Source: Streptosporangium carneum (GTDB lineage Bacteria; Actinomycetota; Actinomycetes; Streptosporangiales; Streptosporangiaceae). From it: a stretch of 64,000 bases of DNA. Location of the stretch: the NCBI RefSeq assembly GCF_027922005.1, contig NZ_BSEV01000012.1, forward strand, positions 123,440-187,439, in the 5' to 3' direction. Of the stretch, positions 2,316 through 13,000 are shown one piece after another. Under the pieces are notes generated by a model. It searched no databases. It was given only the letters and a program-made list of their open reading frames with translations, and was not told the origin of the DNA. A program made the position numbers and the translations under genes. Each line of letters starts with the position of its first letter. Position 1 is the first letter of the stretch.

Positions 2316-2550
2316 AGCCATGTCCGGCCGTGTCCGGGACGGGCGGCGTCCGAGGCCGGGCCGGTTCCCGCGACCGTCGGTCCGCGACCGTCGGCCCGTG
2401 ACCCGAGGCCCCGTGACCCGAGCCGAAGCCCTGCCCGACCGCTTCACGCACCTGTCGTGTTTGGAGCGTTTTGGTGAGTTCCCGTGCGGCGCGGCGCGGC
2501 GTGCGGCACCCTCGTAGAGGCGGATTCGAACAGGTGGAAGGGAAGAGGTC

Positions 2551-3816
2551 GTGCCCGACAGGCGGACGCGTGTCTCCCATCTGATCGAGGAGGCCCGCCA
2601 GGACCTGGCCTACCGCCCCCGCGTCCCGTACGGCGCCGCCCGCAGGCCGGGATCGGTGCTCTCGGTCGTCGCGGTCCTCGCCGTCGCCGTGCTGGCGGCC
2701 ACACTGGTGGTCGTCTCGCAGCTGCCCGACGACGCCCCTGAGACGATCCTGCGCAGGCCCGTGGCCGGGCAGGTCCAGCAGGAGGCGGGCCGGGCCCCCC
2801 GGCAGGGCGGGACGACGGCCGCCGAGCCGACCAAGGCGGCCCCGCCTCCCGTGGCCCCGTTGACCACGATCCGCAAACCGAACCTGTTCGTCGTGTCGAA
2901 CAAGCCGCTGAGCTCGGCGGTCGTGGCCAAGGTCGCCCAGGTGGCGGGCGTGCGGGCGGTCGAGCGCGCGGACGCGGCGGAGGTCTCCCTGGACGGCAAG
3001 CGGGTGCAGACGCTGGGGGTCAACCCCTCGACGTTCCGCGCCTTCACCCCGAAGCCGACGGCGCGCTCCGACAGGCTCTGGCGCAACGTCTCAGCGGGTG
3101 AGCTGGCCGTCTCCTTCGTCCTCGGCAACGACGGCGGCATGTCCCTGGGCAAGACCGTCTCGACGGCCGGGCTGACCCTGCGCGTCGGCGCGTACGCCAC
3201 GATGGGGATGGGCGCCATCGACGCCGTGGTCTCCCGGCCGACCGCGCGCGCCCTCGGCATCCCCGAGGACAACGCGCTGGTGGTGAGCGCGCCGCGCGCC
3301 GACTCCGCCGAGCTGCGCCGCACGTTGCTGCGCATCCTGCCGAAGGGGAGCCAGGTCGCCACGATCAACCCGGTGCTGTCGGCCCCCCGGCGCACGGTCT
3401 GGTCGGCGGGGGCCTTCATGACGGCACTCCAGGTCAAGACCGCCCTCACCGCGGCGATCGGCAAGCTGGGCCGCCCGTACGTGTGGGGCGCCGAGGGCCC
3501 GGACACCTTCGACTGCTCAGGACTCGTCCAGTGGGCCTACGGCCAGGCGGGAGTCAAGGTCCCCAGGGTGACGCACCAGCAGTTCGTCTCGGGGCCGCAG
3601 ATCTCGCTCGCCCAGGCCCAGCCCGGCGACCTGCTGTTCTGGCGGCACGACCCGACCAACCCCGGCTACGTCTCGCACGTGGCGATCTACTGGGGCAACG
3701 GCATGATGCTGCACGCGCCCAGGACCGGCGACGTGGTCAAGCTCGTCCCGGTCAGCACCCGCAACTTCGCGGGCGCCGTGCGGATCAGCCCGCAGATCGC
3801 CGCCAAGGTCCTCTAG
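2551..3816 (+). CDS. Membrane-anchored NlpC/P60 peptidoglycan endopeptidase
   Basis: Probable cell-wall hydrolase cutting D-Glu-mDAP stem-peptide bonds, 421 aa. A short cytoplasmic N-terminus precedes one transmembrane segment (about 36-56), a Pro/Ala-rich linker (60-105) and an unclassified region (about 110-285). The C-terminal NlpC/P60 domain (about 300-415) has Cys322 in FDCSG and His376 in SHVAIYWG. The GTG at 2551 follows GGGAAGAGG. The middle region (FVVSNKPLSSAVVAKVAQVAGVRAV) recalls a permease-like extracellular segment, but no family name is safe. It is convergent with the TetR gene, with three bases between stops. Confidence 0.85.
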   Translation: MPDRRTRVSHLIEEARQDLAYRPRVPYGAARRPGSVLSVVAVLAVAVLAATLVVVSQLPDDAPETILRRPVAGQVQQEAGRAPRQGGTTAAEPTKAAPPPVAPLTTIRKPNLFVVSNKPLSSAVVAKVAQVAGVRAVERADAAEVSLDGKRVQTLGVNPSTFRAFTPKPTARSDRLWRNVSAGELAVSFVLGNDGGMSLGKTVSTAGLTLRVGAYATMGMGAIDAVVSRPTARALGIPEDNALVVSAPRADSAELRRTLLRILPKGSQVATINPVLSAPRRTVWSAGAFMTALQVKTALTAAIGKLGRPYVWGAEGPDTFDCSGLVQWAYGQAGVKVPRVTHQQFVSGPQISLAQAQPGDLLFWRHDPTNPGYVSHVAIYWGNGMMLHAPRTGDVVKLVPVSTRNFAGAVRISPQIAAKVL

Positions 3817-4583: not shown

Positions 4584-5109
4584 GGATACGGAAGAATCAG
4601 TGGAAGAACTGCGGGGCTGGTTCTCCGGGCGGTTGCCCGAGGGCTGGTTCGAGGGGCGTCCCGAGGTGGTGCTCGACCGGGAGGAGATCGCGGTCATCGG
4701 CAGGCTCGAGGCGCCCGTCCTCGCCGAGGGCGTCTCCGACGTCGAGCGGGCCGCCGCCGTCGAGGGCGGGGTGCAGCGCTTCAGGGAGGAGACCCGGGAG
4801 CGGCGCATCGAGATCGCACGGGAGGCGGAGCACCGCTTCCGCAGGAAGGTCTCGTGGGGGGTGGCCGTCGGTGACGAGACGGTGATGTTCACCACACTGT
4901 CAGTTCCTGTTATGACCAGGTTGCGCCAGTCGGAGCGGCGGGTCCTGGACACTCTCGTGGCCGCCGGGGTCGCCCGCAGCCGCAGTGACGCGCTCGCCTG
5001 GTGCGTGCGCCTGGTGGGCGCCCACACCGACACCTGGCTGACCGATCTGCGGGACGCGCTCCAGCACGTGGACCGCGTGCGGGCCTCGGGGCCTGACATC
5101 GGTTCCTGA
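4582..5109 (+). CDS. Hypothetical protein with RHH-like C-terminal segment
   Basis: Protein of 175 aa with no function I can name. The first 95 residues are acidic/basic and probably helical (ERAAAVEGGVQRFREETRER). Residues about 98-150 look like a ribbon-helix-helix unit: a strand-like TTLSVPVMTRLR, a helix, the RSRSDA turn typical of RHH proteins, and a second helix ending in WCVRLVGAHTDTW. No ribosome site precedes the ATG, so translation is probably leaderless. The palindrome at its start fits a self-regulating DNA-binding protein, but the RHH call rests on pattern only. Confidence 0.6.
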   Translation: MDTEESVEELRGWFSGRLPEGWFEGRPEVVLDREEIAVIGRLEAPVLAEGVSDVERAAAVEGGVQRFREETRERRIEIAREAEHRFRRKVSWGVAVGDETVMFTTLSVPVMTRLRQSERRVLDTLVAAGVARSRSDALAWCVRLVGAHTDTWLTDLRDALQHVDRVRASGPDIGS

Positions 5110-5134
5110 GGCGGGCCAGGGAAAACGGCCGAAA

Positions 5135-5191
5135 ATTGGTCTGAACCTGTTCGACGATTGGTTTAGACCTCTGTGATTGGCCTATACCACT
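5135..5191 (+). promoter_or_regulatory. Three tandem dre-like (GntR/HutC-type) operators upstream of pckG
   Basis: Three 16-mers, ATTGGTCTGAACCTGT (5135-5150), ATTGGTTTAGACCTCT (5157-5172) and ATTGGCCTATACCACT (5176-5191), each match 12 of 16 positions of the DasR-type element ACTGGTCTAGACCAGT. Start-to-start spacings of 22 and 19 bp put them roughly two helical turns apart. The protein that binds them is not known; DasR or another HutC-subfamily GntR protein is the best guess. Confidence 0.6.
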
Positions 5192-5319
5192 GGCCGAACT
5201 GGCTCCTTTAGTCTCACTTCTTTTGGGTAGGTCACTCAGAACGTCGTGGCTCCTGCCAGCTCATATGCCCGTCACCGTGGGCGGTCCGGGGGTCCGGCGA
5301 CGACGAACCGCGTCTATTC

Positions 5320-5335
5320 ACTGGTCTATGCCAAT
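5320..5335 (+). promoter_or_regulatory. Fourth dre-like operator, proximal to pckG
   Basis: ACTGGTCTATGCCAAT matches 13 of 16 bases of the DasR-type consensus and lies 65-80 bp before the pckG start, where a bound repressor could cover the promoter. With the three distal sites it could allow looping. Confidence 0.55.
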
Positions 5336-5399
5336 TGGATTAAGGGCGGTTTGGTCGTCAATGATGATTTGGCCCTGAGAAGTGTAAGGAGCCGTAGCA

Positions 5400-7199
5400 G
5401 TGTCCGTTATCGAGGACGTAACCGCCCCAAGTCCCACCACCCACGACGAGCTGGCCGCGTGGGTCAGGGAGGTCGCCGAGCTGACCCAGCCCGACCGGAT
5501 CGAATGGTGCGACGGCTCGGAGACCGAGTGGACGCGCCTGACGAACCTGCTGGTCGAACAGGGGACGTTCAAGCGCCTCGCCAAGCGGCAGAACAGCTTC
5601 TACGCGGCCTCCGACCCGACCGACGTCGCCCGCGTCGAGGACCGGACCTACATCTGCTCCGAGCGTGAGGAGGACGCGGGGCCGAATAACAACTGGATCG
5701 CTCCCGACGAGATGCGCCGCACCTTCGCCGGGCTCTTCAAGGGCAGCATGCGCGGTCGCACGATGTACGTCGTGCCGTTCTGCATGGGCCCCCTCGGCGG
5801 TGAGATCTCCCAGCTCGGTGTGGAGATCACCGACTCGCCGTACGTCGTCGTCTCGATGCGGATCATGACGCGGATGGGCGAGCGGGCCCTGCGGCTCATC
5901 GAGGAGCGCGGCGGCTACGTGAAGGCCGTCCACTCGGTCGGCGCCCCGCTGGAGCCGGGCCAGGCCGACGTGCCGTGGCCCTGCAGCTCCACCAAGTACA
6001 TCAGCCACTTCCCGGAGACCCGCGAGATCTGGTCCTACGGCTCCGGCTACGGCGGCAACGCGCTGCTCGGCAAGAAGTGCTACGCGCTGCGCATCGCCAG
6101 CACGATGGCGCGCGACGAGGGCTGGCTGGCCGAGCACATGCTCATCCTCAAGCTCACCCCGCCGTCGGGGCAGACCCGCTACATCGCGGCGGCCTTCCCC
6201 AGCGCGTGCGGCAAGACCAACCTGGCCATGCTGCAGCCGACCATCCCCGGCTGGAAGGTCGAGACGGTCGGCGACGACATCGCCTGGATGCGCTTCGGCG
6301 ACGACGGCCGCCTGTACGCCATCAACCCCGAGGCCGGCTTCTTCGGCGTGGCGCCCGGCACCGGCGAGTCCACGAACGCCAACGCGATCAGGACGCTCTG
6401 GGGCAACAGCATCTTCACCAACGTCGCGCTGACCGACGACGGCGACGTGTGGTGGGAGGGGCTCACCGACGAGCCGCCCGCGCACCTGACCGACTGGAAG
6501 GGCCGCGACTGGACGCCGGACAGCGACGAGCCCGCCGCGCACCCCAACGCCCGCTTCACGGTTCCCGCCGCGCAGTGCCCGACGATCGCCCCCGAGTGGC
6601 AGGACCCCAGGGGCGTGCCGATCTCGGCCATCCTCTTCGGCGGCCGCCGCGCCACCGCGGTCCCGCTGGTGACCGAGTCGCTGAGCTGGAACCACGGCGT
6701 CTTCACCGGGGCCAACATCGCCTCGGAGAAGACGGCCGCCGCCGAGGGCAAGGTCGGCGAGCTGCGCCGCGACCCGTTCGCGATGCTCCCCTTCTGCGGC
6801 TACAACATGGGCGACTACTTCGCCCACTGGATCAGCCTCGGCGAGCGGGCGAACGTCCAGCTGCCGCGCGTCTACTACGTGAACTGGTTCCGCAAGAACG
6901 ACGAGGGCAGGTTCATCTGGCCGGGCTTCGGGGAGAACAGCCGCGTCCTGAAGTGGATCGTCGACCGCCTCAACGGTGAGGCGGAGGCCGTGCGGACCCC
7001 CATCGGCCTGCTGCCGGCCGAGCTGGACACCGAGGGCCTCGACATCTCCGCCGAGGACCTGCGCACCCTGCTCACCGTCGACGAGGAGGTCTGGCGGCAC
7101 GAGGCGTCGCTGATCCCGTCCTTCTTCGAGACCTTCGGCGACCACCTGCCCAAGGAACTCTGGGACGAGTACCGGGCACTGGTCGAGCGCCTCGGCTAG
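5400..7199 (+). CDS. pckG: Phosphoenolpyruvate carboxykinase (GTP)
   Basis: Converts oxaloacetate plus GTP to phosphoenolpyruvate, CO2 and GDP, the entry step of gluconeogenesis. It is cytoplasmic and Mn/Mg dependent. The length of 599 aa is typical of the GTP class. Visible motifs are the substrate loop [12 protein letters not shown], the nucleotide P-loop [15 protein letters not shown] with the reactive Cys270 and Lys272, the metal-site stretch GDDIAWM, and the C-terminal [20 protein letters not shown]. The GTG at 5400 follows AAGGAGCC. It is monocistronic by position. The 290-bp upstream region carries four dre-like sites, suggesting control by a GntR/HutC regulator and so by amino-sugar or sugar-phosphate status. 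Confidence 0.97.
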
Positions 7200-7361: not shown

Positions 7362-8357
7362 ATGGGAGTCGTCCTGTTTGTCGTAGCCGTCACCGTCCTC
7401 GTGGCAGTCTGGATGGCGGCGGTGGCGGTGCGCGCGGAGCACCGCAGAGTGATCTCGGCGGCCAGGGGCAATGCCGACGCGAGTCTGGGCCCCTACGAGC
7501 TCGCCTACCTGTCGGGCGGGCCGCTTCGGGCGGTCAACACCGCCATCGGCGTACTGGCCAGGGTCGGGGCGGTCCGGGTGTCCAGGGGCGGTCAGATCGG
7601 CCTCGTGACGGGCGCGCTGTCCCGCTCCGAGGCGATCGAGCAGGCCGTCCTCGACACCCTGCGCGGCAGGGGCGGCTCGTGCCCGGCGACGGAGCTGCGC
7701 CGTACGGTCGCCGAGGGCGTCGCCATGGACGGCCTGCGCTACCGCCTGCTGGGGATGGGCCTCCTGGTGCCGGAGAGCGCCCTCGGAGAGGCCCACAGGC
7801 TGCTCAGGCGGTTGTTGACCCTCACGGTGGTCGCGGTCGTGTTCGAGGTCTTCACCGTCCTCTTCCTCGCCGTCTCCGACACGGCGGACTTCTTCTTCGT
7901 GGCCTCGGCGCCGCTCGGTACGCTGGCGTCGCTGGTCGGCCTTTTCGCCTACCTGAAGATGAGGCGGACGCTGCGCGGGATCGTCACCGAGGCCGGGAGC
8001 CGGGCGCTCGCCTCCGCCAGGAGGGTCCACGTGCGGGGCGTCCGCTCCGCGACCCCCGACCTGGCCCTCGCGGTCGCCTTCCCCGTCGCCCTGTACGGCC
8101 TCGGCGAGCTGGGCGACCCGGTCCTGGAGGAGGAGCTGAACCGGGCCAACTCCCATGCCGCGACGAGCGGTTCCGGCTGCGCGTCGGGTTCCTGCGGCGG
8201 CGGCTCCGCCGGCTCCTCCGACAGCTCCTCGTACGGCGGGGGCGGCGACTTCGGCTCCGGCGGCTGGGGCGGCGGGGGCGACTCGGGCGGCGGGTCGAGC
8301 TGCGGAAGCGGGTCGAGCTGCGGCGGAGGCGGGTGCGGCGGTGGCTGCGGTGGCTGA
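7362..8357 (+). CDS. TIGR04222-type membrane protein with Cys/Gly-rich tail; candidate MNIO substrate
   Basis: Protein of 331 aa. One transmembrane helix (1-22) is followed by a cytoplasmic region starting LGPYELAYLSGG, typical of TIGR04222 proteins. A hydrophobic pair lies at about 145-192, then a second soluble stretch. The C-terminal tail (about 268-331) is almost only Gly, Ser and Cys, with Cys at 273, 278, 314, 320, 325 and 329, ending GGGCGG. RBS GGAGG precedes the ATG. It is the first gene of a three-gene unit with a DUF692/MNIO enzyme and a small partner. MNIO enzymes oxidise Cys in peptide substrates, so the tail is a plausible substrate; this is inference. The product and role are unknown. 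Confidence 0.85.
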   Translation: MGVVLFVVAVTVLVAVWMAAVAVRAEHRRVISAARGNADASLGPYELAYLSGGPLRAVNTAIGVLARVGAVRVSRGGQIGLVTGALSRSEAIEQAVLDTLRGRGGSCPATELRRTVAEGVAMDGLRYRLLGMGLLVPESALGEAHRLLRRLLTLTVVAVVFEVFTVLFLAVSDTADFFFVASAPLGTLASLVGLFAYLKMRRTLRGIVTEAGSRALASARRVHVRGVRSATPDLALAVAFPVALYGLGELGDPVLEEELNRANSHAATSGSGCASGSCGGGSAGSSDSSSYGGGGDFGSGGWGGGGDSGGGSSCGSGSSCGGGGCGGGCGG

Positions 8358-8408
8358 ACGACTCGTGCGACTCACACGAATCACGACTCGGGATCAGTAG
8401 GGGGGACG

Positions 8409-9221
8409 GTGTCCGGATCGGGATCGTTGGGGGTCGGCATCGGCTGGCGTCCCGAGATCGACCTGACCGTGGAGCGGCTGCCCGGTGTCGGGTTCGTCGA
8501 GGTGATCGCGGAGAACGTCCGCCCCGACAGGCTCCCCGAGTCGCTGCGGGTGCTCCGCGCCCGTGGGACACCGGTGATCCCGCACGGCGTCGGACTGGGG
8601 ATCGGCGGCGCGGAGCCGCCGGATCCGGCGCGTCTGGCGCATCTGGCGGCCTGCGCGGAGGCTTTGGAGTCCCCTCTGGTCAGTGAGCACCTGGCCTTCG
8701 TGCGGGCGGGCGGCATGGAGGCGGGTCACCTCCTGCCGGTGCCGCGCACCAGGGCCGCCCTGTCGGTCGTCGTGGACAACGTGCGGCGGGCCCAGGAGGC
8801 GCTGGCCGTACCGCTCGCGCTGGAGAACGTGGCCGCGCTGTTCGGCTGGCCCGAGGACGAGATGACGGAGGCGGAGTTCCTGGGCGAGCTGGTCGAGGCG
8901 ACCGGGGTCGGTCTGCTGATCGACGTGGCCAACCTCTACACCAACCAGGTCAACCTGGGGCTGGACGCGGTGGCCGCGCTGGACGGCCTGCCGCTGTCCG
9001 CGCTGGCCTACGTGCACGTCGCGGGCGGCCACTCCCACCACGGCCTGTGGCATGACACCCACACCACCCGAGTCCCCGACGACGTGCTGGACATCCTGTC
9101 GGAGCTCCGCGCCAGGGTGGAGCCGCCCGGGGTGCTGCTGGAGTGGGACGGCGACTACCCCAGCGACGCCGTGTTCGAGACGGAGCTGGACCACATCCGC
9201 GGCGCGATGGCCCGTGCCTGA
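8409..9221 (+). CDS. DUF692 / MNIO family multinuclear iron oxidase
   Basis: Protein of 270 aa with a TIM-barrel fold of the DUF692 (UPF0276, MNIO) family. Characterised members (MbnB, TglH and relatives) use two or three iron ions to modify Cys in ribosomal peptides, usually with a partner protein. Motifs seen: [20 protein letters not shown] at the N-terminus, [44 protein letters not shown] and LLEWDGDYP, with the His, Asp and Glu expected of the iron site. The GTG at 8409 follows AGGGGGGACG, 51 bp after the TIGR04222 gene. Its end overlaps the partner gene by 8 bp, implying coupled translation. Confidence 0.92.
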
Positions 9222-9729
9222 CCGGAGCGCGGCCCACGGACCGGCCCACAGTGCGGCCCACAGTCCGGCCCGCAGTGCGGAGCACGGTCCGGGCGACGGC
9301 GCAGGGAGCGGGGCGCGGGAGGCGTTGGCCAGGGCGCAGGCCGGGCTGGTGGCCGCCCTGGTCGCGGGGGGCGAGCCGCCCGAGGGGTTCGACGTGGGGC
9401 GGTTGCGGATCCAGGAGGCCGCGCTGATCTCCAAGCGGCGGGGGACGGTGGCTCGGCTCAGGCCCGACCTGTGCGCGCTGCTGGGCGACGCCTTCGCGGC
9501 GGAGTTCGACGGCTACGCGCGCGGCCGCCCCAAGCCGCAGGGCGGCTCCCGCGTGGACGCCCAGGACTTCGCCCGATGGCTCGGGGAGAAGGGGTTGCTC
9601 CCGCAGGAGCCGGACCCGGAGGCGCGGGTGGATCCGGCCCCGGGGCTGAGGTCGAGGCTGGGGCGGTGGGTGAGCCGGAGTCGGAGCCGGGCACGAGGCC
9701 GGGACAGGGCCCGTGAGTGGGGATCGTGA
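9214..9729 (+). CDS. Small MNIO-partner-like protein (SCO6045-like C-terminal type)
   Basis: Protein of 171 aa starting at the GTG at 9214, inside the end of the MNIO gene. The first 30 residues are low complexity (repeated AHS/ARS). The core (about 30-130) has [40 protein letters not shown] and [18 protein letters not shown], followed by [10 protein letters not shown]. This helical pattern matches small proteins next to actinobacterial DUF692 genes and resembles the DUF2063-type partners of other MNIOs. It may bind the leader or the substrate protein. The Arg-rich C-terminus is probably disordered. The role is inferred from context. Confidence 0.7.
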
Positions 9730-9900: not shown

Positions 9901-10058
9901 GGGAGGGGCGTCCCGGGGTGGGGGAGAAGGCGCGGGATCGGGTGGGAGCGGGGAGGAGCCTGGGAGCCGGGAGGGCGGACGGGACGCTTGCTTCTCCTGA
10001 AGAGCGTCTCTCCCCTGAGCACGTTTTGGCGTCCTGTGCCGGGGATACCCTCTCTGGG

Positions 10059-10616
10059 GTGGGGGGACTGCGTTGCCTTGATGGGTCTTATCTGACCGTT
10101 ACGCCGGTGGCGTGCCGGGACAGCATCGGCTCGCCGTACGAGATCACGCTCGAACTCCACCGGGACGGCGCCCTGTACGGAACGGTCGGGGAGCGGTGCG
10201 GCTGGTTCCTCACCAGGCTGGCCAAGGGGGTCGCCGAGGCCCGTGCGGGGCAGCAGGAGCAGTGGCCCGACCCCGACGACCGCTTTCCCGACGACGAGGA
10301 ACTGTTCGCCTTCCGCTACCGGACGAGGAAGGGCATCGTCAGCGGCGGCGAGCTCCGCTGCCAGCTGCGCACCATCCCGATCTGGATCCCCGGGCCGCGC
10401 GGCCCCTCGGGTGAGTGGCGGCTGGCCAGGAGGGCTTTTCTCGAGGCGTGGGGGCGCGGCGGGGTGGGGATGCGCGCGGTGCTCACCTCGGCGGAACTGG
10501 GAGCCTTCGTGGACGGCCTCGTCGCCGAGGCGGAGGAGTGCCTGGGGCCACAGAAGTCCGGCAACTCCTCCAGAACCCCGATAGAGGGGGCGGAGAGGTC
10601 TCCGGGGCGGCGATAA
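10059..10616 (+). CDS. Hypothetical protein
   Basis: Protein of 185 aa if it starts at the GTG at 10059; the frame stays open up to 9918, but that upstream part is low complexity. Codon use and GC skew are those of a real gene. A globular core includes CLDGSYLTVTPVACRDSIGS, YEITLELHRDG, ERCGWFLTRLAKG and a C-terminal helix ELGAFVDGLVAEAEECL. No family is recognised. TACCCT at 10046-10051 could be a -10 box for a leaderless transcript. It is the gene just upstream of the cis-prenyltransferase, 47 bp away. Confidence 0.6.
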   Translation: MGGLRCLDGSYLTVTPVACRDSIGSPYEITLELHRDGALYGTVGERCGWFLTRLAKGVAEARAGQQEQWPDPDDRFPDDEELFAFRYRTRKGIVSGGELRCQLRTIPIWIPGPRGPSGEWRLARRAFLEAWGRGGVGMRAVLTSAELGAFVDGLVAEAEECLGPQKSGNSSRTPIEGAERSPGRR

Positions 10617-10663
10617 TTGCCTGTCAGCGCCCTTCGACGGCGGGCGTTGAGGGGAGGGCTCCA

Positions 10664-11431
10664 ATGGGCGTTCGTGATCTCGTCTACCGGCTCTACGAAC
10701 GACGGCTGGAAGGGAAGCTGTCCCGCGAGAGAGACATGGTTCCCCGGCATGTCGGCGTGATCGTCGACGGGAACAGGCGCTGGGCGCGTTCGATGGGTCT
10801 CAACGACGTCAGCCGAGGTCACCGCAAGGGCGCCGACAAGATCTCCGAACTGCTCGGCTGGTGCCGGGAGGCCGGGGTCGAGGTGGTGACCGTTTGGTTG
10901 CTGTCCAGTGACAACATCAACCGGCCCAAGGACGAGCTCGACCTGCTGATGAAGATCATCGAGGACGTGGTCCAGGAGCTCGTGGCTGACGGATGGCATA
11001 TCAAACCCATGGGAGCGCTTGATCTCCTGCCCGATCACACGGCCCGTGTCCTGAAAAACGCAAAAGAAGAAACATCACACCGTCCGGGTTTGATTGTGAA
11101 CGTTGCCGTTGGGTATGGAGGAAGGCGTGAGATCGCTGATGCGGTGCGCTCCCTTCTCCAGGAGCACGCCAGCAAGGGCGCGAGCATCGAGGACCTTGTC
11201 GAGGTCCTCGATGTCGAGCACATCGCGGAGCATCTCTACACGCGCGGCCAGCCCGACCCGGACCTGGTCATCAGGACCTCGGGAGAGCAACGCCTGTCCG
11301 GCTTCCTGCTCTGGCAGAGCGCCCACTCCGAGTTCTACTTCTGCGAGGCCTACTGGCCTGACTTCCGCAGAGTCGACTTCCTGCGGGCTCTCCGCTCCTA
11401 CGCCGCGCGGCACCGACGGTACGGCTCCTGA
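10664..11431 (+). CDS. uppS: Isoprenyl transferase (cis-prenyl diphosphate synthase)
   Basis: Condenses isopentenyl diphosphate units in cis onto an allylic diphosphate, providing Z-polyprenyl carriers for cell-wall lipids. Protein of 255 aa. The catalytic Asp35 lies in VIVDGNRRWARSMG. VWLLSSDNINRP, NVAVGYGGRREI, the RTSGEQRLSGFLLWQ motif and EFYFCEAYWPDF are all conserved. The start ATG follows GGGGAGG. The synteny position corresponds to Rv1086, a short-chain Z-farnesyl diphosphate synthase, so the product chain length (short or C50-55) is uncertain. Confidence 0.93.
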   Translation: MGVRDLVYRLYERRLEGKLSRERDMVPRHVGVIVDGNRRWARSMGLNDVSRGHRKGADKISELLGWCREAGVEVVTVWLLSSDNINRPKDELDLLMKIIEDVVQELVADGWHIKPMGALDLLPDHTARVLKNAKEETSHRPGLIVNVAVGYGGRREIADAVRSLLQEHASKGASIEDLVEVLDVEHIAEHLYTRGQPDPDLVIRTSGEQRLSGFLLWQSAHSEFYFCEAYWPDFRRVDFLRALRSYAARHRRYGS

Positions 11432-11674
11432 AACAGGACATGAACACCCCCTTTCGGTCAGGCTTGCCCTGTTGGAAGTCGGGTATTCAGGACGTACCGT
11501 AACAAGTAGGCGGGCGCAGCTCGTCTACTCCGGAGAGGGCCCACCTTTGCGTCACGACCTGCCAAGGAGGGCCGGTCACCGGTGCCTCCGCGGCATGCCG
11601 CGAACGTGGTCCCGGGTCCGGTCCGCATCCCAGCTCATGGCAGGGCGCCCCTCATGGCGCCCGGGGGAGAACGC

Positions 11675-13000
11675 GTGGCAAACCCTTCGTCCTCACCCAC
11701 GTCGCCGGTCACCAATCGGCGTACGTACGTCCTGGACACCTCGGTCCTGCTTGCCGATCCAGCGGCGATCAGCCGCTTCGCCGAGCACGAGGTGGTCCTC
11801 CCGATCGTCGTCATCACCGAGTTGGAGGGCAAGCGCCATCATCCAGAACTCGGATACTTCGCGCGTAAGGCGCTGAGGTCTCTCGACGACCTGAGGGTGA
11901 CACACGGGCGGTTGGACGAGCCCATGCCGATCGGCGAGGGCACCATCCGGGTGGAACTCAACCACAGCGACCCGTCGATCCTGCCCGTAGGCTTCCGGCT
12001 CGGCGACAACGACACCCGCATCCTGACCGTGGCGCGCACGCTCGCCGCCGAGGGGCACGACGTGGTGCTGGTCTCCAAGGACCTGCCGATGCGGATCAAG
12101 GCCGCCTCGATCGGCCTGGCCGCGGAGGAGTACCGCGCCGAGCTCGCCCCCGTCGAGTCGGGCTGGACGGGCATGGCCGAGCTCCAGGTCACCACGGAGG
12201 ACATCGAGACCCTCTTCGAGCACGGCGTCGCCGACCTGGCGGAGGCCCGCGACCTGCCCACCCACACCGGACTGCGGCTGCTGTCCAGCCGGGGTTCCGC
12301 GCTGGGCCGGGTGCTGCCGGACAAGTCGGTGCGCCTGGTGCGCGGCGACCGGGAGGTCTTCGGGCTGCACGGCCGCTCCGCCGAGCAGCGCATCGCCCTC
12401 GACCTGCTGATGGACCCCGAGGTCGGCATCGTCTCCATGGGCGGCAGGGCGGGCACGGGCAAGTCCGCGCTGGCCCTCTGCGCGGGCCTCGAGGCGGTCC
12501 TGGAGCGCCGCCAGCACCGCAAGGTCATCGTCTTCCGCCCCCTGTACGCCGTCGGCGGCCAGGACCTGGGCTACCTGCCCGGCTCGGAGAACGAGAAGAT
12601 GGGCCCGTGGGCGCAGGCCGTCTACGACACCCTGGGCGCGGTCACCACGCCCGAGGTGATCGAGGAGGTCATGGACAGGGGGATGCTCGAGGTGCTCCCT
12701 CTCACCCACATCCGCGGTCGTTCCCTGCACGACGCCTTCGTCATCGTCGACGAGGCGCAGTCGCTTGAGCGCGGGGTGCTGCTCACGGTGCTGAGCCGGA
12801 TCGGCGCCAACTCGCGGGTCGTGCTCACCCACGACGTCGCCCAGCGCGACAACCTGCGGGTCGGCAGGCACGACGGCGTGGTCGCGGTGGTCGAGAAGCT
12901 CAAGGGCCACCCGCTGTTCGCCCACATCACGCTGACCCGCTCCGAGCGCTCGCCGATCGCGGCGCTGGTCACCGAGATGCTCGAGGACGTCACGCTGTAG
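11675..13000 (+). CDS. phoH2: PhoH2-type protein: PIN ribonuclease domain fused to PhoH ATPase
   Basis: Protein of 441 aa. The N-terminal PIN domain (about 10-140) has the acidic residues in [26 protein letters not shown] and [12 protein letters not shown]. The C-terminal PhoH P-loop ATPase (about 235-435) has the Walker [12 protein letters not shown] and Walker [11 protein letters not shown]. Mycobacterial PhoH2 is an ATP-dependent RNA helicase/ribonuclease, and the same role is likely here. The GTG at 11675 is preceded by GGGGGAGA; the upstream open frame (from 11582) lacks family similarity. The 243-bp spacer before it (11432-11674) shows no gene. Confidence 0.92.

Follow-up and report, generated by a model that had tools for sequence, protein, structure and literature searches.

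A TIGR04222 membrane protein with a cysteine-bearing Gly/Ser tail, encoded with an MNIO enzyme and its partner in Streptosporangium carneum: a probable protein-modification module

The Streptosporangium carneum DNA analysed here (64,000 nucleotides, positions 123,440 to 187,439 of contig NZ_BSEV01000012.1; the whole of this stretch is called the window) carries a group of three genes on the + strand, in the order TIGR04222 membrane protein, MNIO (DUF692) enzyme and small partner protein (Table 1). The gap of 51 bp between the first two genes and the overlap of 8 bp between the second and third suggest that all three belong to one operon. The GTG at 9214 is a presumed start for the partner, because the mechanically defined open reading frame begins at an ATG at 9052. 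In profile searches of the 9.84 Mb genome, the only MNIO match and the only TIGR04222 match both fall in this group. The three genes probably form one protein-modification module (at a probability of about 0.7), in which the MNIO and its partner would oxidise cysteines in the tail of the membrane protein that is encoded with them.

Table 1. Coordinates of the three genes and of the tail within the window
Feature	Position	Strand	Basis
TIGR04222 domain membrane protein, putative MNIO substrate, 331 aa	7362..8357	+	NCBIfam TIGR04222 match
Gly/Ser/Cys tail, residues 261-331, ends GCGGGCGG	8142..8354	+	sequence
MNIO (DUF692, PF05114) oxidative enzyme, 270 aa, GTG start	8409..9221	+	PF05114 and metal-site residues
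MNIO partner, 171 aa, presumed GTG start	9214..9729	+	homologs and precomputed Pfam label PF26136

The membrane protein passes the TIGR04222 (near_uncomplex) profile with 114.7 bits against a curated cut-off of 43 (E 4.8e-33). Its layout consists of an N-terminal transmembrane segment (TM1), a winged-helix-like region at about residues 38-140 and a transmembrane hairpin (TM2 and TM3) at about 154-200. Six cysteines lie in Gly/Ser surroundings in the tail, at residues 273, 278, 314, 320, 325 and 329, and three of them (C314, C320 and C325) are kept in at least 90% of 65 aligned homologs, which were picked by similarity to the window's protein. Tail cysteines are mostly flanked by Gly or Ser, the next residue being Gly at 296 of 349. 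The nearest named homologs of the module come from Streptosporangium and its relatives.

Weak matches among the 65 homologs were to DUF2207_C (13 homologs, best E 2.6e-4) and to a Crp-type helix-turn-helix (14, best E 6.8e-3). When TIGR04222 was aligned by hhalign with a DUF2207 profile built from 27 DUF2207-locus open reading frames, for a few of which the frame is doubtful, the probability was 99% with the Gly-rich tails and 93% without them; the tail-free alignment scored 58.6 over profile positions 6-219, against at most 11.5 for five shuffles. These profiles indicate that TIGR04222 and DUF2207 are related, with homology extending outside the Gly-rich tail. The two are alike in the profile match along the TIGR04222 region and in having a Gly-rich C terminus, but DUF2207 proteins have a longer N terminus and 0 of 22 of their Gly-rich tails contain Cys. 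Weak out-of-class TIGR04222 matches (G015:C13:12650-13405 and G021:C7:97092-97778) sit on DUF2207_C proteins, which fits common descent.

The enzyme matches PF05114 with 269.4 bits (cut-off 25, E 3.8e-80). It was compared within a set of 79 MNIOs, 70 of them linked to a TIGR04222 gene and nine others, from which one weak MNIO-like open reading frame (37 bits) was excluded. Nine positions aligned to solved MNIOs, which we take to form the metal site (H59, H94, E139, D172, N175, H203, D216, H218 and E245), are present in all 70 linked enzymes, the window's included. The best NCBIfam model is BufB (NF050167), at 196.4 bits, whilst the HvfB, ApyH, ChrH and MbnB equivalog models failed, with 146, 121, 65 and 45 bits against cut-offs of 360, 400, 600 and 325. 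Among solved structures the closest by sequence is a TglH entry (8HI7, E 1.1e-28). A further residue, H215 (window 9051-9053), directly precedes the DxH motif (HDTH) in 67 of the 70 linked MNIOs and in none of the nine others, and this His is also found in TglH (8hci/8hi7). TglH acts on a peptide with its partner TglI, according to the available text of Antoine et al. 2025 (PMC12452194); the same reaction is unsupported here.

A homolog search with the partner returned 61 proteins; those with a named source belong chiefly to Streptosporangium, Nonomuraea and their relatives. PF26136 is the precomputed label of the matches, some of which go by the name SCO6045-like C-terminal domain-containing. 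The window's partner itself matched no Pfam or NCBIfam family at E <= 1, and PDB sequence searches with it gave nothing useful. A profile of the homologs finds a partner at all 70 linked MNIOs, in 38 cases as a separate gene (36 downstream of the MNIO and 2 upstream) and in 32 as a fusion, placed C-terminally of the MNIO domain within one reading frame (E <= 8e-22 with the iterated profile). The uniterated profile also recovers all 32 fusions, the worst at 4.9e-10. None was found within 1.5 kb of the nine MNIOs that have no TIGR04222 neighbour, and this difference between linked and other enzymes argues strongly that enzyme and partner work together. Fusions are found at L205:3591-4961, L200, L203 and 29 other loci.

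Being encoded with an MNIO and having no DUF2063 signature, the partner fits PME-type 2 as far as tested. A DUF2063 match was obtained for 1 of 26 aligned members of the partner family (E 0.07), and the profile-profile comparison with DUF2063 was weak (36% probability, score 30.5, with eight shuffles at or below 21.7), so that a relationship between the partner and DUF2063 proteins such as 3DEE and 8HI7 is suggestive only. The first-pass annotation of this DNA had read three elements from the letters: a membrane protein with six Cys in a Gly/Ser tail, a DUF692/MNIO enzyme with intact metal-site motifs, and a small partner gene overlapping that of the enzyme by 8 bp. All three are borne out by the matches above, with the partner's start as a presumption.

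The distribution of the Cys tail was followed in two overlapping samples, each including the window's genome. In the class sample of 295 genomes the TIGR04222 profile had a match in 108, over the cut-off in 85; in the family sample of 61 genomes the figures were 44 and 39, and PF05114 was positive in 30 of the same 61. The candidates scored per genome were limited to nine in the class sample and to at most 38 in the family sample, so paralogs may have been missed. The over-cut-off matches of both samples comprise 143 open reading frames. A tail was counted as a Cys tail if it had two or more [GS]C[GS] motifs in the last 80 residues and a G+S+C content of 45% or more over the last 40. A TIGR04222 gene was counted as linked if an MNIO open reading frame lay within 3 kb, or as unlinked if none did and the contig reached 3 kb or more in both directions.

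The MNIO tracks the Cys of the tail and not the TIGR04222 domain as such, which is a new result. In the family sample, every one of the 25 genomes with a Cys-tailed TIGR04222 protein has an MNIO, as against 1 of the 14 with Cys-less TIGR04222 only and 4 of the 22 with none over the cut-off. By open reading frame, the 83 linked comprise 63 with a Cys tail and 20 without, and the 46 unlinked comprise 6 and 40 (Fisher 3e-12 over 129 decidable frames, kinship being ignored); at contig ends, where linkage is undecidable, one is Cys-tailed and 13 are not. When only stop-terminated Gly/Ser-rich tails are considered, at least two [GS]C[GS] motifs are found in 62 of 62 linked but 6 of 19 unlinked (3 more are undecidable). 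Six of the 20 linked Cys-less frames share their locus with a Cys-tailed copy, one of these being truncated at a contig end; the other 14 have no such copy. The six unlinked Cys-tailed proteins come from six genomes, each with an MNIO elsewhere; the partner check of the MNIOs in these genomes covers G437, where a second pair is linked.

Most of what is known of MNIO enzymes comes from peptides and exported copper-binding proteins. If the proposed module is real, an integral membrane protein as substrate extends MNIO chemistry to resident membrane proteins, and soil actinobacteria might use it to sense metals or redox state. Enzyme and partner would bind as a complex, as the 32 natural fusions suggest, and this complex would oxidise Cys of the Gly/Ser/Cys tail on the TIGR04222 membrane protein, the tail Cys being put forward as the modified residues because of the co-occurrence. 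A 5-thiooxazole-like modification, of about -4 Da per Cys, is a first guess, made because the enzyme scores best with the bufferin-maturase model. The product may, speculatively, be an array of modified Cys tethered to the membrane, binding soft metals (copper, for example) or answering thiol/redox stress. For related MNIO-PME1 systems, the available text of PMC13097082 reports 5-thiooxazole products, copper binding, an absorbance near 305 nm and a loss of 8 Da from a two-repeat substrate. The bufferins and captophorins (BufB, FonB and HvfB type) share with this system a Cys-directed MNIO with a dedicated partner, and BufB is its nearest NCBIfam model. Their precursors carry Sec signal peptides and their partners are of the DUF2063-RRE kind (PME-type 1), as far as the sources available describe them, whereas here the putative substrate is a multi-span membrane protein, the partner is short with no DUF2063 signature, and the enzyme scores under the BufB cut-off.

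The TIGR04222-MNIO proposal is not new; what is added here is the coupling of Cys to the enzyme, the constant partner with its fusions, the relationship to DUF2207 and the charge and hydropathy in favour of a cytoplasmic tail. The core substrate proposal is already in print, since PMC12452194, in the text available, describes more than 3,500 TIGR04222 proteins, mostly from Actinomycetota, with C-proximal Ser/Gly/Cys tails and often beside MNIO genes, and proposes subsets of them as MNIO substrates. The first-pass annotation spoke of an undescribed product; the arrangement itself is described in that paper, which has PME-type 2 partners and makes the same proposal. The same protein and enzyme families, the same Actinomycetota range and, as far as tested, the same class of partner are concerned. 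There, however, PME-type 2 partners are predicted for at least 10% of TIGR04222 clusters, many clusters apparently having no partner, whereas here a partner accompanies every linked MNIO, in 32 cases as the C-terminal fusion; no MNIO-partner fusion in TIGR04222 clusters is mentioned in the available part of that paper. The fusions thus bear on the clusters of the 2025 survey that seemingly have no partner gene, and as single-polypeptide enzymes they are simpler to test. The same text also reports that over a quarter of TIGR04222 proteins have no C-proximal Cys and that an MNIO is absent from 490 of 1,372 TIGR04222 genomes.

Nor is the type of substrate as unusual as was first supposed, since action of an MNIO on the end of a large protein has a precedent. 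According to the available part of PMC12636315, an MNIO modifies the end of a 34 kDa signal-peptide protein, and also GFP carrying the motif. The ChrH-like MNIOs described there (DybH and MelH/MelHc) modify the C-terminal end of large proteins, as found by experiment, and resemble the present system in having a helper domain that is either fused or separately encoded. They differ in their recognition motif, CPxCxMG, which is absent from the Gly/Ser/Cys tail here, and they belong to another enzyme subfamily, as the low ChrH score given above indicates. In the literature searched, by title and the start of the abstract, no experimental work on TIGR04222 was found; the accessible text of PMC5183585 names a TIGR04222 peptide within a bacteriocin cluster, and that of PMC12710340 makes no mention of TIGR04222.

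MNIOs act in the cytosol. Mean loop charges over the 65 homologs are +2.1 after TM1, +2.4 before TM2 and +4.7 after TM3, the TM2-TM3 loop being slightly negative, and the positive loops probably place the winged-helix-like region in the cytosol. The segment before the tail (segment 4) is short and weakly hydrophobic, reaching a Kyte-Doolittle value of 1.6 in 7 and 11% of two Cys-tailed sets, compared with 91 and 82% for TM1 and 40 and 62% for TM3. Charge and hydropathy thus tip the balance towards a tail on the cytosolic side, where the enzyme works. Against this, TM3 itself is just moderately hydrophobic, and the acidic stretch beyond segment 4 (mean charge -2.9 in the 65 homologs) is also compatible with segment 4 crossing the membrane. 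The DUF2207 alignment without tails stops short of segment 4. An exported tail, modified before or during membrane insertion so that the product is shown outside the cell, is what Antoine et al. predict, and is the less favoured arrangement without being far-fetched. It has in its favour an AlphaFold2/topology prediction in print, which in the text available makes the tail periplasmic (PMC12452194), and the acidic stretch, which would fit a tail outside the cell provided that segment 4 spans the membrane; the weakness of segment 4, the positive loops and the cytosolic site of MNIO action tell against it. The ‘surface structure’ that the first-pass annotation imagined is doubtful, though not decisively so, because charge and hydropathy favour a cytoplasmic tail.

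Several observations weigh against modification of the tail by the MNIO and its partner. The enzyme's score lies below the BufB equivalog cut-off of 310, so that bufferin-equivalog identity is rejected. The definition of the Cys tail was set after an initial looser count (two or more Cys among the final 80 residues, with 45% G+S+C over the final 60), and was tightened because the first one counted Cys outside the Gly-rich part; the first definition gave 62 with and 21 without a Cys tail near an MNIO, and 13 with and 33 without among the unlinked. The direction is unchanged under nine threshold combinations. Kinship was taken into account with a tree of 120 TIGR04222 domains without their tails, 23 of the 143 frames being excluded for a short match or undecidable linkage. 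Five supported independent pairs differ in linkage, of which a mean of 4.7 agree and 0.0 oppose (median p 0.0625); in the reverse test, with six pairs, 4.3 agree and 1.7 show no difference (median p 0.125). In direction the phylogenetic test is thus in agreement, yet with so few pairs it is underpowered and falls short of significance. In one 98% complete genome (G302) a Cys-tailed protein is present and an MNIO was not found, the contig ending 143 bp past the gene.

A further observation concerns 14 loci where a fused MNIO-partner lies beside Cys-less TIGR04222 only. Thirteen belong to the genus g3, very probably Streptomyces, since the best 80 of 544 named-genome loci obtained with a g3 enzyme query are all Streptomyces; the other is in G357. 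A query with a Cys-tailed Streptomyces protein found no Cys-tailed paralog in the 14 genomes, although the copies in two control genomes were recovered. The best 80 of the 544 loci, which are those most like the Cys-less-type enzyme, have a fused enzyme in 80 of 80 and Cys-less TIGR04222 nearby in 56 of 80, and none has a Cys-tailed gene within about 4 kb, the flanks being short in 14 of the 80. Metal-site residues are intact at all 14 exceptional loci, and within this genus the TIGR04222 tree shows two paralog groups, with 11 Cys-tailed and 17 Cys-less rows. Hence, in part of Streptomyces, the enzyme must use another substrate or the Cys-less paralog. The check that the first-pass annotation had proposed, on whether DUF692 and TIGR04222 genes stay together and the tail Cys are conserved, thus has a mixed outcome: the coupling is clean within the window's family, but in a Streptomyces lineage the MNIO and partner persist next to a TIGR04222 protein with no Cys tail. 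Its enzyme-partner-tail scheme is supported in that the three form a set, with the tail as the likeliest substrate by co-occurrence. Cys-less paralogs lie beside the fused enzyme at L205:5980-6777, L200:6982-7833 and related loci. L205 also has a gene for a PTH2 peptidyl-tRNA hydrolase-like protein (2478-3194) before the fused enzyme and a DUF4142 gene (5038-5877) after it, an arrangement recalling the ‘Adjamnio-II’ of PMC12452194, as far as its available text goes.

The Streptomyces loci could be explained if the MNIO and its partner act on another substrate, a different protein or peptide encoded elsewhere, whilst the tail, its Cys left unmodified, has a metal- or redox-binding role and only shares the regulon. 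Retention of the fusion where there is no Cys-tailed TIGR04222 speaks for this, as does S. coelicolor SCO6045, whose name some partner matches share: the available part of PMC4991794 describes it as induced by oxidative stress (3-fold) with sulfur assimilation genes, and as deregulated in the absence of HbpS-SenS-SenR. Judging from the protein name, SCO6045 may be a fused MNIO. Nevertheless, a separate substrate is unlikely, given the genome-level contrast between Cys-tailed and Cys-less genomes and the fact that the sole MNIO and the sole TIGR04222 match of the window's genome are neighbours. Near the 13 Streptomyces fusions, inspection by eye also turned up no small Cys peptide that was convincingly conserved; the conserved short open reading frames there resemble frame shadows.

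Modification of the tail is the preferred reading, and an extended form of it can be imagined, improbable as it is when taken with all its parts. The cytosolic MNIO-partner would decorate the cytoplasm-facing Gly-Cys tail of a DUF2207-like protein, with the winged-helix-like domain as a recognition element, and the mature protein would be a permanent membrane-tethered metal/redox sensor or buffer, made by RiPP chemistry and not released as a peptide; the Streptomyces lineage would have retained enzyme and partner once the tail had disappeared or been relocated. That the tail Cys are functionless drift of Gly codons in a GC-rich repeat is hardly credible and was rejected: the last 78 codons of the window's gene do include GGC 21 times and TGC for all six Cys, one substitution apart, but the three conserved columns (in homologs chosen by similarity) tell against drift, and such Cys are missing from 13 of 19 Gly/Ser-rich tails with no nearby MNIO and from all 22 Gly-rich tails of DUF2207.

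At L182, one MNIO is preceded by three tandem Cys-tailed TIGR04222 genes. A 232 aa open reading frame at 9918-10616 of the window, with no Pfam family at E <= 0.01, has relatives at 16 of the 70 linked loci. The phosphoenolpyruvate carboxykinase gene upstream of the module (5400-7199), and the genes at 10658-11431 and 11582-13000, presumably encoding undecaprenyl-diphosphate-synthase-like and PhoH-like proteins, each have relatives at 22 of the 70 linked loci within the stretches fetched.

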